From Candidatus Nomurabacteria bacterium (GTDB lineage Bacteria > Patescibacteriota > Minisyncoccia > Phycocordibacterales > UBA9973): a stretch of DNA of 48,391 nt. Of this stretch, positions 40,973 through 48,391 are shown in pieces (the first letter of the stretch is position 1; every line of letters starts with the position of its first letter). Location: contig CALQYS010000001.1 of assembly GCA_943348755.1 (NCBI GenBank), positions 133,963 through 182,353 on the forward strand, given 5' to 3'. The notes beneath the pieces were generated by a model, which worked only from the letters and a program-made list of their open reading frames with translations, was not told where the DNA came from and made no database searches. A program made the position numbers and the translations under genes.

Positions 40973-43900
40973 TTATGGTCCCGGCGTAGGAGTAGGAGCA
41001 TTAACATTGACTGTCCTAGTGACTTCTATGGCGTGGTTGCCAGCGGTATCGGTAGCATTGTAGTGAATTGTGTAAGTGCCGGCGGTAGATGTATCTACTG
41101 TGCCACTGATGATGACGGCGACAGAAGTGTCTACATCATCTGTGGCGGTGGCTCCTTGTTCATTGTAGGTGTCACCTACGTTTAGGGTTATTGTAGCTTC
41201 ACCTGTGAGGGTGATAACGGGTGGGGTCGTGTCTGCTCCCGGAGTTGTACCACCCCCTGTTCCTGGATCTGCTGGTGGAGTACCGCCAGCGCTACTTCCC
41301 CCTCCTCCAGAGCTACTTCCGCCGGTGTTGTTGACGACACCGCCAGCTTGAGCGATAAGAGAATCCAATTGAGCCTTAGTTAAACAAGTCTTTGCTCCGC
41401 TATCATCCGAGACACATAAATTCTTTGTATTCACTTCTCCTACAAATACCCTCTTTATCCCATTACCCACATCTCCCATCCAAGCTCCAACCTTCTCATA
41501 TACATTTTTAAAGAAGGCATTTACAAAAGATTCATTGGCAGAACCAGCGAGAGGAGTGATGGTGCCATTGATACCATCGAGGTTTAGATTAAGTTCTTTA
41601 ATCGCTTGAATAGACAACATCTGTAGACCGATACCGTAGTCGACAGTTTTGAAACCATGATCATCTATTCCCACAAGTTCTGGGAATAACTTTTCTACAT
41701 CTTGAGCAATTAATCCTTTGACTGGAGCAGTACCAAATTGTTTATCTGGAAATTCATCAGAGCGCCACTGGTATGTTACTGGTTGCAATTGTGAAAATAC
41801 ACCTAGGATATTTGTAATAGGTATAATATTTTTCTTTAAGTTAATATCAGAGGAACACGAACCAGCGAGAGCAGTTCCAGCAAAGTTCTTTATACAACCA
41901 TTAGTACCAGAAGTACCAACTCGGATGTCACCAATTACCACAAGCTTATCAGTGCTTGGACTCGTCGTACCTATACCAACGTTGCCGCTGGAACCTTGTA
42001 TCCTCATATACTCGTTCATGCTTCCCGCATTCTCTGTTGTAAAAGTTAAATCAGCAGTATTATTTGCTCCGGCAGTTGTAAGTATAGAACGAATTGCTGC
42101 TGAACTTTGTAAAACATGAGAAGTATTTTCCATCTGGAAATTGATACCTACACCGAGTCCTGCTGTGGGGGTAACATTACTATTTACGTGTCTTATAAGT
42201 TGAAGATAGTCATTATTTGAATTAATCTGTCCGTTATATCCCTCCAATATTAATACTTGGGGGTCATTTTGGCTTGCAGTAAAGTGTGCAGTTATTGTTC
42301 CTGTTCCCACACTTGATGGGTAAACATTGAGCAATGCATCAGTTGAACGATATATTGAATCAGTTGTTCCAAGTTGGACATTACCATTTCCAAAAACAGA
42401 AAATCTGGTACCGCCGACTAGGCTGTATGCTACTCCAGAATTAGCACCCGTAAAAGCTGTAGTGGTCATGGAAGTATCAGAAGCGATAGCAGAGATAGTT
42501 TTTGTTTCTCCGTTGATGGTGATCGTATCACCTATTTTGAAAGTATTAGTAAATTGAGTACCTACACCCGTAACAGTCGTCCCCCCAGCTCCATTAGAAA
42601 CAGTGCCAACACCTGTTGCGCCTTGAGTAACTTGAAGATTTGAGGTTGGAGTGGTTGTCCCAAGCCCTATATTCCCTCCACTATTTTTAATAAAGAATGG
42701 TGCACCAATATAAGCTTCAGAAGAATCAAAGGTTTCATAAAAAAGATCAGCAGTAGTTGAATTTGCTGTTTGTCCTGTTAGAAATCTTCCTCTCAACTTA
42801 CCATTCTGAAGAAAACGAAAATCACCACTATATCCAGTATTTGAGGAATCTGCATAAAAAGACAGACTACGAGTAATACCATTGACATCAAGGAGTTGGG
42901 TAGGTGACGTCGTACCGATACCAACTTTACCAGTATTATCTATTGCTAATCTCCACGCTGCATTATTATATAGACCTAGAGTAGTCGCACTTTGCTGACC
43001 AATAAACTGAGTCTGTCCAGAGTTAAGCCAAACTCCCCCATTGTTACCAGAATCCCCAGTTTGAATACGTCCATTTACAGCCAAATCTACAGTTTGGTTA
43101 CCACCCCCAGTAATTTGTAATTTATTTGCAGGAGAAGATGCACCAATACCCACGTTACCACTCGGTGTATTTAATACCGTATTCCCTCCTGCTGAACCTA
43201 TATTTGTTCCACCGGTGCTAGTATTTCCTAAATAAACAATACCAGTGGTTCCAGCGTTAACATTAAACTGAACTCCCGCAGCCACTTGTCTTATATCCTG
43301 ATATCCAATACCGACGCTTTGTGTAGAATTATTAGCCAGAAATCTTACTATATTTGTGCTTGCTGTGTTATCTGCGCTCAATACTGAAAACTTTTCTCCT
43401 GGTGCAGTCGTTCCTATACCCACATTGCCACCATTAAGAATAGTCAAGCGAGCAGCACCGCTACCGTAATTACCATTCCAAATAGTGAAATCTCTAGTAC
43501 CAACTCCAGCGGCCTCAGCTGTCAGATGCCAGTTATCAGCAGCTGTAGCAGAATTACCCAATTGGAAACTTGCAGTACCGGTGCCGGCGAGCTGAAGTTG
43601 GGCTATTGGCGCTGTCATTCCAATACCGACTTTACCCGAAGAATCAATCCTTAACCTTTCGGTATTGTTCGTAAACATGGTTATCGGTCCAGTGGTGGTG
43701 TTGTTGTATAACTCAAGCGCATTTCGTCGATTCGTTGTGGCAAAAGTACTTCCTAACATTTGTACAGCTCCTATCTCTGAACTATTATTCTTGAAAGCAA
43801 CACGCCCATATAGACTAGTATCTGACCAATCAAGAAAGACATCTGGTTGTATAGACCTTACAGTTAATGAAGTTCCCCCATTACTACTACTTGCCGGACT

Positions 43901-46900
43901 CGTAGTACCCACACCCACATTCCCCGTACTTCCCACTTGTAACCCAGTGTAAGCAATCTTGTAAGCTTGTGAAGACACTGTCTGAGAGGCAGAAACAGTA
44001 AGGTGAGTCGTGTCAGTAAAGGCAGTGATAGTACCTGCGTTTGTACCATCTGCAAATACAAACTGTGAACCAATCATGGCACTGGTGAATGTGGTACCTA
44101 CACCAGTAACAGTAGTGGTTGATTGTGAAGCTGTGCCTGTGGTGTATTGAGTTGGAGTGACAGAGAGTATGTTACTTGGTGTGATAGTGCCGATACCGAA
44201 GTTACCACCTGAAATATATGATGACCCATCAGACAAGAAGAGGTTCTTTGGAGCACCTGTGGCGTTAGTATACTGAGCAAAACCTGCACCGCTTCCCGCT
44301 GTATTATAAAGAACGTTTGTATATACCCCTCCTGTAATACTTGTAAAAATAGCATTAGCATTAGCTCCAACAGACACGTCTAGTTTTGCCCCAGGGGTTG
44401 TCGTTCCTATGCCAACTTTACCAGTACTATCTATTACCATTTTTGTACTGTTTCCATTTGTACGAAACTGAAGTCCGTTTGCAGTACCGCCCGAAACACT
44501 GTTGTAAACAATTCCTCCAGCAATATTACTTGAAACATTACCAAACAGAATTCCAGACTCACTCGCATCTGGTGTTAAAATATTCAAATATCCATGAGAA
44601 GAATTTTCTAATGTCGCTATAGCACCGCTATATGGTGATGCACCCGAAGATCCATTTGAGATATGGAGCTTGGACTGAGGACTCGCTGTGCCGATACCAA
44701 CGTTGCCACCGAGAAAAGCGGCAGCGTAGTTGTTCGTTGCACCAGTTTGTGTGTTTACAGTAAGACCATAAGAATTAGTCGCTGCCCCGACAGCTGCTGA
44801 TGCGATATTAAGAGCAGTGGTATTAGTAATGGACTCGTTGGTACTCTTTATTGGTGCACCACCTATGTAAAGGTTGTAAGCATTAGTAGTAGTAACCGAA
44901 ACATTGGTAGCCACTAAGGTTGGTGCAGCAATACTGTTAAAAGTGGCTCCTGTAGCTGTACCGCTTGCCGCAGTAGCATTATCAGTTAGGGTAGATGCAG
45001 AGATAGATAAATATTTACCTACTGTAGCTGAAGGAGTTGCACTAAGTGATTTAGACACATCGAGAAGACCAGCTGGAGTCGTGGTGCCGATACCAACGTT
45101 GCCATTATTTAATATCCTAGCTGCTTCTGTCGCACCGTTAGCACCAACTTGAAAGATGATATCAGAGCCCGTTGTAGATGAAGCATTAGAACTAGACTTG
45201 AGTGTAAGAGTTGAAGTTGTACCAGTGCCTCCGATTACTAATGGATCAGTGATGTTTGTAGTAAAGGTGGGAGTAGTATCAAATACCAATTTGCCTGTTC
45301 CTGTTGCTCCAGTTGAGGTTACTCCCTCAAGCGTAGTGTGGCCAATTACGGTAAGAGTGGAGTTAAAAGTCGCTGCACCAGCTTTACTGACTTGCCAAGT
45401 AGAACCTGTACCAAGTATATCTGCACCCGTACCCGAGTTAGCGATAGCTAAAACCGCACCCCCACCAGAAGCATAAGACTGAGTCAATAACAATACATTT
45501 GTGCTGTCAGCACAAGTACCGGCCGTTACCGTACAACTCGAAGAAATAGCAGCTACCGGATTAAAGATAGTTAATTGACCTCCTGTGGTAGTGGTAAAGT
45601 TTCTGGATAAATTTAAAATACTTCCGCTGATAGTGTAACTTCCATTAAAAGATGCGGTGTGGTTAGCGTTGATCATATTCGAAGAAGAACCTCCAGTACC
45701 ACCCGCAGTATCAGTAAGTGCTAGGATGCTTCCGCCAGAGATGGCGGTAGCTGTAATACTGTGGGCTGTCGTCGTCCCCGTATATGTCTGACTAAATTGT
45801 CCATTTCCAGAAGACATTGTTAAATTCTGTCCTCCCGCCACCGTCACATTTCCATTCGAAGTTAATCCAGAAGTTGCAGTAATTAATCCAGAGATAGTAG
45901 GAGTAGCTGTCCATGCAGTTCCGGTAACAGTTAGATTGCCACCTAATGTGGTTAAGTTACTTCCAGAAACTGTAAATGTGTTGTCCAGAGTTGTAGCTCC
46001 GTGTAAAGTCAAAGCTCCGGGAGTAGTAGTAGAACCAATTGTATTGACACTCAAAGCACCAGTGCCTAAAGTTGTCGAGCCCGAAGAAGCCAAAGTTCCA
46101 GTGACGTCCAGAGTTTTACTTGGACTTGAAGTCCCAATACCAACGTTACCTGCAGTATCAATAACAAATGGAGTTGAATCCGTATATGTGCCATCATCAT
46201 TCACTCTTAATACTAAGCTGGTAGAACCTGTCTGTGCTGAAGTAACATTTAGAGTGGTTCCACTGGCGGCATGAAGACCAGTATAGCCAATTTTCACCAG
46301 ACTACCAGTGTTTGTAGTCAAAGTCGTAGCTGAATTTTCTATTTTTAAAAGTTGGCCAGTAAAGGCTGTGGCGGAAGAAGCGATAGAAAGAGCGGTACCA
46401 CTTGTAATAGAATTTACAGAAATTGATTGAACTAGACCACTACTTAAGTTATTTGCAACCATATCGAGTAACCCTCCTGATGTTGTACTGGCAGGATTAC
46501 CAGTTATAGAAAGACTGAGCAATCCTCCCGTGGTAATAGACGGAGAGGAGCTTGTAATTTTTAAAGCATTACCAGAGGTAAGAGCATTGGCCACGATAGA
46601 CTCTCCAATTCCCGCTGTAAGTCCAGAGTAAGTTTGTAAGAACTGTGTACCATCTGTTGATGCAGTTGAAGAAAGATTGAGTAAAGACCCATTAGTAGAG
46701 GTATCAACTGAAGTGGAAGAAAGTTTTAAAAGTGAACCACTAGAAATCACCGAATTGGTGTGTGGGATAACAAATGCAGTACCAGTGGTTAAACTATTAG
46801 CGGTAATGTTGAGAGCACTTACTGTAGCAGAGGTACTAGTAATGTCCAGATTAGCAGCTGGAGCAGCGGTGCCGATACCAACATAACCGGACGTATTCAC

Positions 46901-48391
46901 AGTAACACGATCTACGGCCGCTATTCCGTCATATATTTTAAAAGATCCTTGCTCTCCAGACGCACCTGTTGTTTCATAAATTGTCCAATGTGATATATTT
47001 GCAGCGTTACGCCAATTTATTTGAGAAGTGCTTCCATTATTTGTTAAAAGGTTAAGGGAGGAATTGACGCCAGAGATACGAACACTGGTAGCTACGTGTA
47101 AGGGTTCTGCAGGTGTAGTGGTCCCAATCCCAACGTTACCACTAGGAAAGATAGCAGCGTAGTTGTTTGTACCACCTGATGCAGAAACGGAAAGTCCAAC
47201 ATTTGTACTTGATGTTCCACTATGAGCATTAGAAATCTGAGCGCCGTAAGTGATTTGATTATTATTAATACCTGAGAGGGCGATATTGAGTAAAGTCTGT
47301 GTATTAAATGCAGCCGCTGTACTGTTAGTAGAGAGCGTAAGCGCACTATTTGAAGAAAGGCTATTCCATGCCCATGTCTGAGGATTATCTACATTGTTTA
47401 TCGTGTTGATTGCTGTGGCTGCTGTGATTTGATCAAGCCTAGTACCAGCACCGGAAACTACTGTAGTCCAAGATGTACCACCTGAACCATCAGTGGTGAG
47501 AACCTGACCATTTGTACCTGCGCTACCTGGTAATGTAAGTGTCCAAGAACCCGCAGCTGCAGCAGGTTGCAACTGTACATATCCTGAAGTATTGCCTTCA
47601 AGACGAAGTGTTCCTAAAGTTGTACCGGCAAGACCAATATCAAGTTTAGCTCCAGGGTTAGTGTTACCAATACCCACATTACCTGTGTTATCAATCCTGA
47701 CTCTTTCCGTTAGTACAGAAGGTGTAGCGTCAGTGCCGGTCCAGAAAGACAAGAAGCCTGGAATTCTAGTGTCAGCGATGGTGCCAGAAGAGATAGCCTT
47801 GATGGCTGCACCGGTGATATAACCTGAGGCTCCACCGTAACCAGTGAAGTTGATTACTCCCAGTTCATCTGCGGTGGTAATGACAGTAGGTGAAGCAGCT
47901 GTACCTCTAGCTTTTCTGAAATTTACATCAAAACCATCAGCTGAACCATTTGCTTGGGTGAAGTAAGACTGCCCAAGAGCTGCTGTATCGGATGAGACAT
48001 GTAAAAGTCCTGCTGGTGCCGTCGTACCAATACCCACATTTCCAGCATTTACGATCAAGCCATAGTTTGCAGTAGTGCCCCCAAATGCATTTAGATAAAG
48101 GGCAATATTGGTTCCTGAAGTAGGATTAGTATGAATATTGGAAATTTGAGCTCCATAAGTTGTGACACCGTTGGTTGTGGTGGCCCCAGCAGTAAGAATA
48201 TTTAAGGCTGTCTGACTATTCGCTGGAGTGGTACCCGTTGCAGCAGTACCCGAAACTTGTAGGTCGAGAAGCTTCCCGCTAGTTAAGCTATTTGAGGAAA
48301 TAGTATCTGCTGCTGTCGTCGTCCCCGTATATGTCTGACTAAATTGTCCTGTACCAGAAGCCATCGTTAAGTTTTGATTCGCTCCAACTGT
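40973..48391 (-). CDS. Giant tail-fibre-like surface protein with S74 autoprotease and C-terminal Ig-like domain (5' end outside window)
   Basis: The frame is open to the window edge; the ATG at 48364 is internal, because the residues before it (ANQNLT) continue a repeat seen near 45830. About 2,472 residues are visible. The body carries 16 copies of a GNVGIGTT.P...L.V motif, as in phage tail fibres and other trimeric beta fibres, mixed with Ser/Thr/Gly-rich spacers. At about 41560-41860 is a peptidase S74 intramolecular chaperone: SDINLKKNI with the Ser-Lys pair five residues apart, PVTYQW, KGLIAQDVEKLFPELV and QAIKELN. A Gly/Ser/Pro linker follows, then one Ig-like domain of DUF5011 type (about 41000-41225) and PTPTPGP. 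It is probably an extracellular adhesin. Confidence 0.9.
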   Translation of the reverse strand, partial: TVGANQNLTMASGTGQFSQTYTGTTTAADTISSNSLTSGKLLDLQVSGTAATGTTPANSQTALNILTAGATTTNGVTTYGAQISNIHTNPTSGTNIALYLNAFGGTTANYGLIVNAGNVGIGTTAPAGLLHVSSDTAALGQSYFTQANGSADGFDVNFRKARGTAASPTVITTADELGVINFTGYGGASGYITGAAIKAISSGTIADTRIPGFLSFWTGTDATPSVLTERVRIDNTGNVGIGNTNPGAKLDIGLAGTTLGTLRLEGNTSGYVQLQPAAAAGSWTLTLPGSAGTNGQVLTTDGSGGTSWTTVVSGAGTRLDQITAATAINTINNVDNPQTWAWNSLSSNSALTLSTNSTAAAFNTQTLLNIALSGINNNQITYGAQISNAHSGTSSTNVGLSVSASGGTNNYAAIFPSGNVGIGTTTPAEPLHVATSVRISGVNSSLNLLTNNGSTSQINWRNAANISHWTIYETTGASGEQGSFKIYDGIAAVDRVTVNTSGYVGIGTAAPAANLDITSTSATVSALNITANSLTTGTAFVIPHTNSVISSGSLLKLSSTSVDTSTNGSLLNLSSTASTDGTQFLQTYSGLTAGIGESIVANALTSGNALKITSSSPSITTGGLLSLSITGNPASTTSGGLLDMVANNLSSGLVQSISVNSITSGTALSIASSATAFTGQLLKIENSATTLTTNTGSLVKIGYTGLHAASGTTLNVTSAQTGSTSLVLRVNDDGTYTDSTPFVIDTAGNVGIGTSSPSKTLDVTGTLASSGSTTLGTGALSVNTIGSTTTPGALTLHGATTLDNTFTVSGSNLTTLGGNLTVTGTAWTATPTISGLITATSGLTSNGNVTVAGGQNLTMSSGNGQFSQTYTGTTTAHSITATAISGGSILALTDTAGGTGGSSSNMINANHTASFNGSYTISGSILNLSRNFTTTTGGQLTIFNPVAAISSSCTVTAGTCADSTNVLLLTQSYASGGGAVLAIANSGTGADILGTGSTWQVSKAGAATFNSTLTVIGHTTLEGVTSTGATGTGKLVFDTTPTFTTNITDPLVIGGTGTTSTLTLKSSSNASSTTGSDIIFQVGANGATEAARILNNGNVGIGTTTPAGLLDVSKSLSATPSATVGKYLSISASTLTDNATAASGTATGATFNSIAAPTLVATNVSVTTTNAYNLYIGGAPIKSTNESITNTTALNIASAAVGAATNSYGLTVNTQTGATNNYAAAFLGGNVGIGTASPQSKLHISNGSSGASPYSGAIATLENSSHGYLNILTPDASESGILFGNVSSNIAGGIVYNSVSGGTANGLQFRTNGNSTKMVIDSTGKVGIGTTTPGAKLDVSVGANANAIFTSITGGVYTNVLYNTAGSGAGFAQYTNATGAPKNLFLSDGSSYISGGNFGIGTITPSNILSVTPTQYTTGTASQSTTTVTGVGTTFTSAMIGSQFVFADGTNAGTITAFTDTTHLTVSASQTVSSQAYKIAYTGLQVGSTGNVGVGTTSPASSSNGGTSLTVRSIQPDVFLDWSDTSLYGRVAFKNNSSEIGAVQMLGSTFATTNRRNALELYNNTTTGPITMFTNNTERLRIDSSGKVGIGMTAPIAQLQLAGTGTASFQLGNSATAADNWHLTAEAAGVGTRDFTIWNGNYGSGAARLTILNGGNVGIGTTAPGEKFSVLSADNTASTNIVRFLANNSTQSVGIGYQDIRQVAAGVQFNVNAGTTGIVYLGNTSTGGTNIGSAGGNTVLNTPSGNVGIGASSPANKLQITGGGNQTVDLAVNGRIQTGDSGNNGGVWLNSGQTQFIGQQSATTLGLYNNAAWRLAIDNTGKVGIGTTSPTQLLDVNGITRSLSFYADSSNTGYSGDFRFLQNGKLRGRFLTGQTANSTTADLFYETFDSSEAYIGAPFFIKNSGGNIGLGTTTPTSNLQVTQGATGVGTVSNGAGGTTVTGVGTQFTNTFKIGDTITINGETKTISAIASDTSMTTTAFTGANSGVAYSLVGGTRFSVFGNGNVQLGTTDSIYRSTDALLNVYPSSVGTGTITAHFTASQNDPQVLILEGYNGQINSNNDYLQLIRHVNSNVTPTAGLGVGINFQMENTSHVLQSSAAIRSILTTAGANNTADLTFTTENAGSMNEYMRIQGSSGNVGIGTTSPSTDKLVVIGDIRVGTSGTNGCIKNFAGTALAGSCSSDINLKKNIIPITNILGVFSQLQPVTYQWRSDEFPDKQFGTAPVKGLIAQDVEKLFPELVGIDDHGFKTVDYGIGLQMLSIQAIKELNLNLDGINGTITPLAGSANESFVNAFFKNVYEKVGAWMGDVGNGIKRVFVGEVNTKNLCVSDDSGAKTCLTKAQLDSLIAQAGGVVNNTGGSSSGGGGSSAGGTPPADPGTGGGTTPGADTTPPVITLTGEATITLNVGDTYNEQGATATDDVDTSVAVIISGTVDTSTAGTYTIHYNATDTAGNHAIEVTRTVNVNAPTPTPGP
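45765..48349 (-). repeat. Exact 38-nt direct repeat inside the giant gene
   Basis: The 38 bases at 45765-45802 recur exactly at 48312-48349 in the same orientation. They encode GQFSQTYTGTTTA, and similarity continues on both sides. It marks duplication of a protein module with a period of about 2.55 kb, or gene conversion between modules. Confidence 0.85.

Follow-up and report, generated by a model that had tools for sequence, protein, structure and literature searches.

For many Patescibacteria a life attached to, or touching, host cells is assumed. To our knowledge, how these bacteria fold and hold their giant surface proteins is poorly known. The locus described here raises a specific form of this question, namely what becomes of the C-terminal domains of a giant fibre when a self-cutting chaperone is placed in front of them rather than at the very end of the chain. 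The window, by which we mean the whole stretch of DNA that was analysed (48,391 nucleotides; G000:C1:133963-182353 of a 182353-base contig), contains such a protein at its contig-end side.

The open reading frame occupies positions 40973-48391 on the minus strand, with its stop end at 40973. Because the frame continues up to the edge of the contig, the protein has at least 2472 residues and is seen here without its N-terminus (Table 1). The original prediction had called it a giant adhesin; its size justifies the adjective, whereas the noun found no support. Two candidate N-terminal fragments lie at other contig ends (L367, which opens C6, and L368, which closes C5), and the genome holds two C-terminal fragments at contig edges, the window ORF and one in L036. 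No end overlap of 15-299 bases between N- and C-terminal fragments was found in the two joins tested, so neither candidate is assigned to the window ORF.

Table 1. Features of the giant reading frame, in window positions, with residues numbered from the contig end.
Feature	Position	Strand	Remarks
Giant secreted-fibre ORF (putative)	40973..48391	-	2472 aa within window; 5' end runs off contig C1
Shaft, 17 GNVGIG-type repeats (13 fit G-x-VGIG)	41984..48043	-	Residues 117-2136 and on
Cys pair C2166 and C2179	41855..41896	-	Just before scissile bond; possible disulfide staple of shaft end
Predicted scissile bond S2180-S2181	41849..41854	-	PF13884 position 1; model alignment to MyRF S587 and T5 S1264
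S2181, nucleophile of dyad	codon 41849-41851	-	PF13884 profile position 1
K2186, dyad partner at +5	codon 41834..41836	-	
Peptidase_S74 / intramolecular chaperone auto-processing (ICA) domain, residues 2181-2240	41672..41851	-	PF13884; fold match to MyRF ICA, GA-1, K1F and T5
Predicted alpha-helix, residues 2252-2266	41594..41638	-	Single-chain AlphaFold2 models; at the place of MyRF alpha4 / trimeric coiled coil
Post-chaperone module, residues 2264-2348	41348..41602	-	Amphipathic helix and Cys hairpin (C2326, C2336)
Gly/Ser/Pro-rich linker, residues 2349-2392	41216..41347	-	Sequence; low model confidence
Bact_surface_Ig-like domain, residues 2393-2463	41003..41215	-	PF16403
Short Pro-rich C-terminus NAPTPTPGP	40976..41002	-	Sequence

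The S74 domain scores 49.7 bits with PF13884, well over the cut-off of 22 (4.6e-13), and the match begins at profile position 1, the Ser itself. The Ser and Lys of SDINLK stand five residues apart, as had been read from the sequence, and the chain from S2181 to its end counts 292 residues, in line with the earlier estimate of about 290 and with the claim that the domain lies before, not at, the end. The Ig-like domain expected in this extension is a PF16403 match of 2.2e-20 (72.9 bits against a cut-off of 27). The Pro-rich end is present as the nonapeptide after the Ig domain, with a Gly/Ser/Pro linker before it, but it is short. Were the chain cut before this Ser, the Ig domain would, as was foreseen, go with the chaperone.

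Since the VIA rows of a first structural model covered the Ig part only, a second model was made for the S74 region (AlphaFold2, residues 2145-2290, 69-row alignment, single chain), which reached a pLDDT of 83.6. In a Foldseek search with this model the first eleven PDB rows were all intramolecular chaperones, including MyRF (7dc3), GA-1 (3gud) and K1F (3gw6), and nothing but such chaperones appeared at E<0.1, with MyRF at 5.4e-06. VIA-align superposed the model on MyRF chain 7dc3_B with Z 9.4 (3.0 A over 116 residues), on 3gw6_C with Z 7.2, on 3gud_B with Z 5.7 and on T5 4uw8_A with Z 5.5, and the best chain other than these chaperones reached Z 3.8. A profile search of the PDB gave MyRF (1e-04) as well as two tail fibres, one of them from phage S16. 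The domain is thus predicted to adopt the ICA fold. A catalytic pair out of alignment in a model, which would have refuted the original prediction, was not seen: provided that no gap falls within the first ten aligned residues, the aligned ranges of the monomer model set S2181 against MyRF 587 and T5 1264.

Passages of a study of MyRF (PMC8326128) give the Ser-Lys pairs as S587/K592 in MyRF and S911/K916 in endoNF, and state that S587A and K592A abolish the cut while no upstream Arg is needed. In T5, by contrast, excerpts of PMC4690869 give a part in the cut to an Arg at -14. An upstream Arg is involved in K1F too, and the window protein has no Arg at the T5 position. Such an Arg holds a fixed position in none of the three sets compared (viral, genome and phylum), so this residue is uninformative and was rejected as a test of activity.

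The placement of the domain had been regarded as an anomaly against the phage type, and the phage half of that comparison holds. Among usable relatives on viral contigs the distance from Ser to stop has a median of 100 residues (87-198), and only 3/79 reach 160 or more. In the sampled Patescibacteria, however, S74 followed by a long tail is the rule. PF13884 was found in 92/379 sampled genomes at 122 places, all of which were inspected; 11 were excluded because the end lay outside the fetched stretch or the domain start was missing, and in the 111 usable proteins the median distance is 310 residues (95-743), with at least 160 in 95. Loci titled Patescibacteria have a median of 245 (10/13 with at least 160) and those titled only 'bacterium' one of 286 (7/9), other named phyla have a median of 120 with 1/57 reaching 160, and the genus has the long extension in 20 of its 27 complete S74 proteins. 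The phylum sample was picked by profile and the viral and other-phylum loci by peptide patterns (GFIAQEV and others), and all group counts of length, dyad and Cys pair ignore kinship, so that Fisher values computed from them serve as a rough guide. The genus also has short S74 proteins that lie in clusters and whose tails, at about 100 residues, are phage-like (G015:C4; G040:C3 and C80).

Nor is the arrangement new in kind, because an S74 domain with further domains behind it has already been published for human MYRF, as the consulted portion of PMC3742443 describes. MYRF and MrfA share with the window protein an S74 domain inside the chain, domains on both sides and the same dyad, and 7dc3 is the closest solved fold. 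They differ in what follows: in MYRF, which acts in the nucleus, S74 is followed by a membrane segment, whereas the window protein has an Ig cap and no stretch resembling a membrane segment. A membrane anchor after S74 was considered and rejected, since no 19-residue stretch with a mean hydropathy of at least 1.6 occurs in the window protein or in 95 phylum tails.

The extension is made of separable parts. The helix-hairpin module, whose invariant residues are L, W, N, C and C (alignment A1), occurs at 33 places in 22/60 congeneric genomes but is narrow beyond them (9/379 phylum genomes at E 1e-4); the tails of other lineages carry different domains. S74 precedes the module at 19 places (recognised by Pfam at 16 of these and by inspection at 3), a different domain does so at 5 and neither at 3, with 6 indeterminate; its occurrence behind a different domain or none indicates that it works when attached. 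A third fibre of this genome, at the C6 end (L036:11494-14007), also carries the module and a tail rich in Pro, but its S74 is replaced by a 'GRIPVKISEENG..GD..PGYAMK' domain that is weakly Peptidase_G2-like (18.0 bits against a cut-off of 25). By eye, this domain also precedes the module in L049, L058, L071 and L072; the S74-replacing domain of L033, L049, L058 and L071 matches Peptidase_G2 weakly, at best with those 18.0 bits. A weak Peptidase_G2 match was seen as well in the tail after S74 of L314.

The Ig domain is predicted to fold like BT2262, Big_3 (2kpn) and InlK, with Z 9.8 to 5fq8_G. When the window protein is compared with its C6 paralogue, conservation is highest in this domain. 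The two are 20-25 % identical in the shaft end and S74 core (25 % in the core) and 88 % in the Ig domain and short end. Nei-Gojobori counts on these two sequences gave a dN/dS of 0.15 for the Ig domain and end (dS 0.47), 0.25 for the module (dS 1.58) and 1.12 for 40 codons of the linker (dS 0.13), so that the Ig domain and the module are under purifying selection. From these sequences, the sharing of linker and Ig domain between the paralogues seems to be of later date than that of the module. Viral contigs have Ig homologues at 8 loci, none of which shows a GFIAQE-like S74 motif in frame with the Ig homologue.

The opposite end of the fibre can be read in relatives. A hydrophobic N-terminal stretch is present by eye in all seven complete relatives that were read (five by script); it is followed by a short collagen-like stretch in four of them (the C6 paralogue, G012, G022 and G042), and both orphan N-termini of the window's own genome (L367, L368) combine a signal-like start with a collagen-like stretch. 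An N-terminus in or near the membrane would put the cap at the far end of the fibre, which is the topology we infer for the window copy. In two relatives, L038 (G022) and L041 (G042), a weak HTH_17 match below its cut-off precedes the hydrophobic stretch; the order HTH_17-like start, hydrophobic stretch, collagen-like stretch, shaft and S74 is remotely reminiscent of MYRF, except that the membrane segment lies on the opposite side.

At the shaft end, two of the six Cys in the 2472 residues lie 15 and 2 residues before S2181, and two more are in the module's hairpin. The combination of one Cys at -1 to -4 and one at -9 to -28 of the Ser occurs in 35/114 phylum cases, against 0/77 viral relatives and 4/58 other-phylum loci; it is found in 5/12 loci titled Patescibacteria, 6/9 titled 'bacterium' and 10/25 genus loci, the regular expression used having L010, L011 and L023 shifted one residue out of register. 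Judged from sequence, the pair may staple the shaft end by a disulfide, which fits a secreted fibre locked at the end where the chaperone leaves.

Taken together, we favour the following mechanism and consider it probable, though well short of certain. The fibre would be exported by Sec and stand at the cell surface, probably as a trimer, its repeat shaft folded by the C-proximal S74 chaperone. Once the correct trimer has formed, S74 would cut itself off before S2181 by means of the S2181-K2186 dyad. The C-terminal piece would carry the conserved cap, consisting of the helix and Cys-hairpin module, the linker and the Ig domain, so that the fibre ends as two pieces, a shaft and a capped S74 trimer that holds the cap non-covalently. 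The cap would be a working module whose action most likely takes place at the fibre's far tip, either ahead of the cut or for some time following it.

Whether the cut is made at all is the first point at which this mechanism could fail. The S74 fold might serve as a trimeric connector, its dyad being a relic or structural, and proteins that lack the Ser or Lys do persist. In the phylum these are L305, where Phe replaces the Ser, L338 and L345, the latter the second domain of a tandem; in the genus they are L019 and L026 (second tandem domain). We nevertheless regard a connector without cleavage as improbable, because the Ser and the Lys at +5 are intact in 116 of the 119 readable phylum cases (a set that includes rows inspected by eye; L307, L360 and L361 are unreadable for the dyad, and L357 retains SIRDTK) while neighbouring motif positions drift, profile position 2 being D in 61/88 and position 5 being L in 50/88 long-tailed rows. 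In the genus, scored by eye and leaving out L027 as spurious, the dyad is intact in 27/29, and the only invariant columns in 14 diverse sequences chosen for alignment A2 are the Ser, the Lys and the Gly of GFIAQE. With such conservation, autocleavage is probably still under selection. One frame of 7454 aa (L043, G027) carries S74 in tandem, the first copy with a dyad (SSAKYK) and the second without the Ser, and then an Ig domain. If the cut is made, it could also release a C-terminal effector in the manner of polymorphic toxins, whose C-terminal toxins are often preceded by autoproteases according to parts of PMC3482391. This idea was rejected and has hardly any likelihood left, as the piece freed would be an Ig domain and a short Pro-rich end, with no toxin family in the tail, and the commonest Pfam names in 90 phylum tails (set A4, the 95 long tails less four with masked bases and L345) include K1-lyase_C (11), Bact_surface_Ig (7), Bactofilin (4) and H_lectin (3). 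Among the same tails there is an Intein_splicing match in 3/90 and a Hint match in one.

After the cut, the chaperone may simply leave with the cap, as in ordinary shedding, and the cap would then serve only export, folding or trimer registration, or be a soluble product. We think this a quite conceivable outcome, albeit not the expected one. The T5 chaperone of pb1 must leave, its removal unmasking a receptor site (from the available text of PMC4690869), K1F behaves as T5, and the pieces of MYRF separate as well (PMC3742443, in the portion cited above); that the pieces part in all three speaks against retention of the cap, and the flexible linker is unconstrained. On the other hand, the module sits on proteins without a recognisable autoprotease at 3 of its 33 places, S74 proteins without a dyad also bear long tails, which must remain attached, and conservation between the paralogues is highest in the Ig domain rather than in the S74 core. 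T5 and K1F share with the window protein the dyad five residues apart, the ICA fold and a domain placed after a shaft, which in the window protein is probably trimeric as well. They have about 100 residues after the Ser, shed as the chaperone alone, whereas the window protein has 292 with a conserved Ig cap; and they fold in the host cytoplasm, whereas the window protein is likely exported by Sec and has the Cys pair at its shaft end.

A bolder extension of the two-piece mechanism, which we offer as speculation and hold to be rather unlikely, is that Patescibacteria have made of the phage S74 chaperone a permanent self-cut joint between a disulfide-stapled shaft trimer and an exchangeable cap trimer held by contact alone. 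The cap would then be a cassette, replaceable over evolutionary time and detachable under load, making a host contact that can be broken. If the capped two-piece fibre is real, it would provide a folding mechanism for giant Patescibacteria surface proteins, predict an exact cut site for proteomics, and add a use of S74 on the bacterial cell surface to those in phages and MYRF. We found no description of a phylum-wide capped S74 fibre, an exchangeable cap or a Cys staple in the open-access PMC literature.

Bacterial S74 proteins with S74 near the end, as in the window protein, are also represented by the tail-fibre-domain proteins of Bacteroidota, which probably have GNVGIG-type shafts. The difference again lies after the domain, as 56 of the 57 S74 loci from other phyla are without the extension. 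The exception, L186 (Chitinophagales), has after S74 what by eye resembles a type IX sorting domain, and cleavage there would split the sorting signal from the protein.
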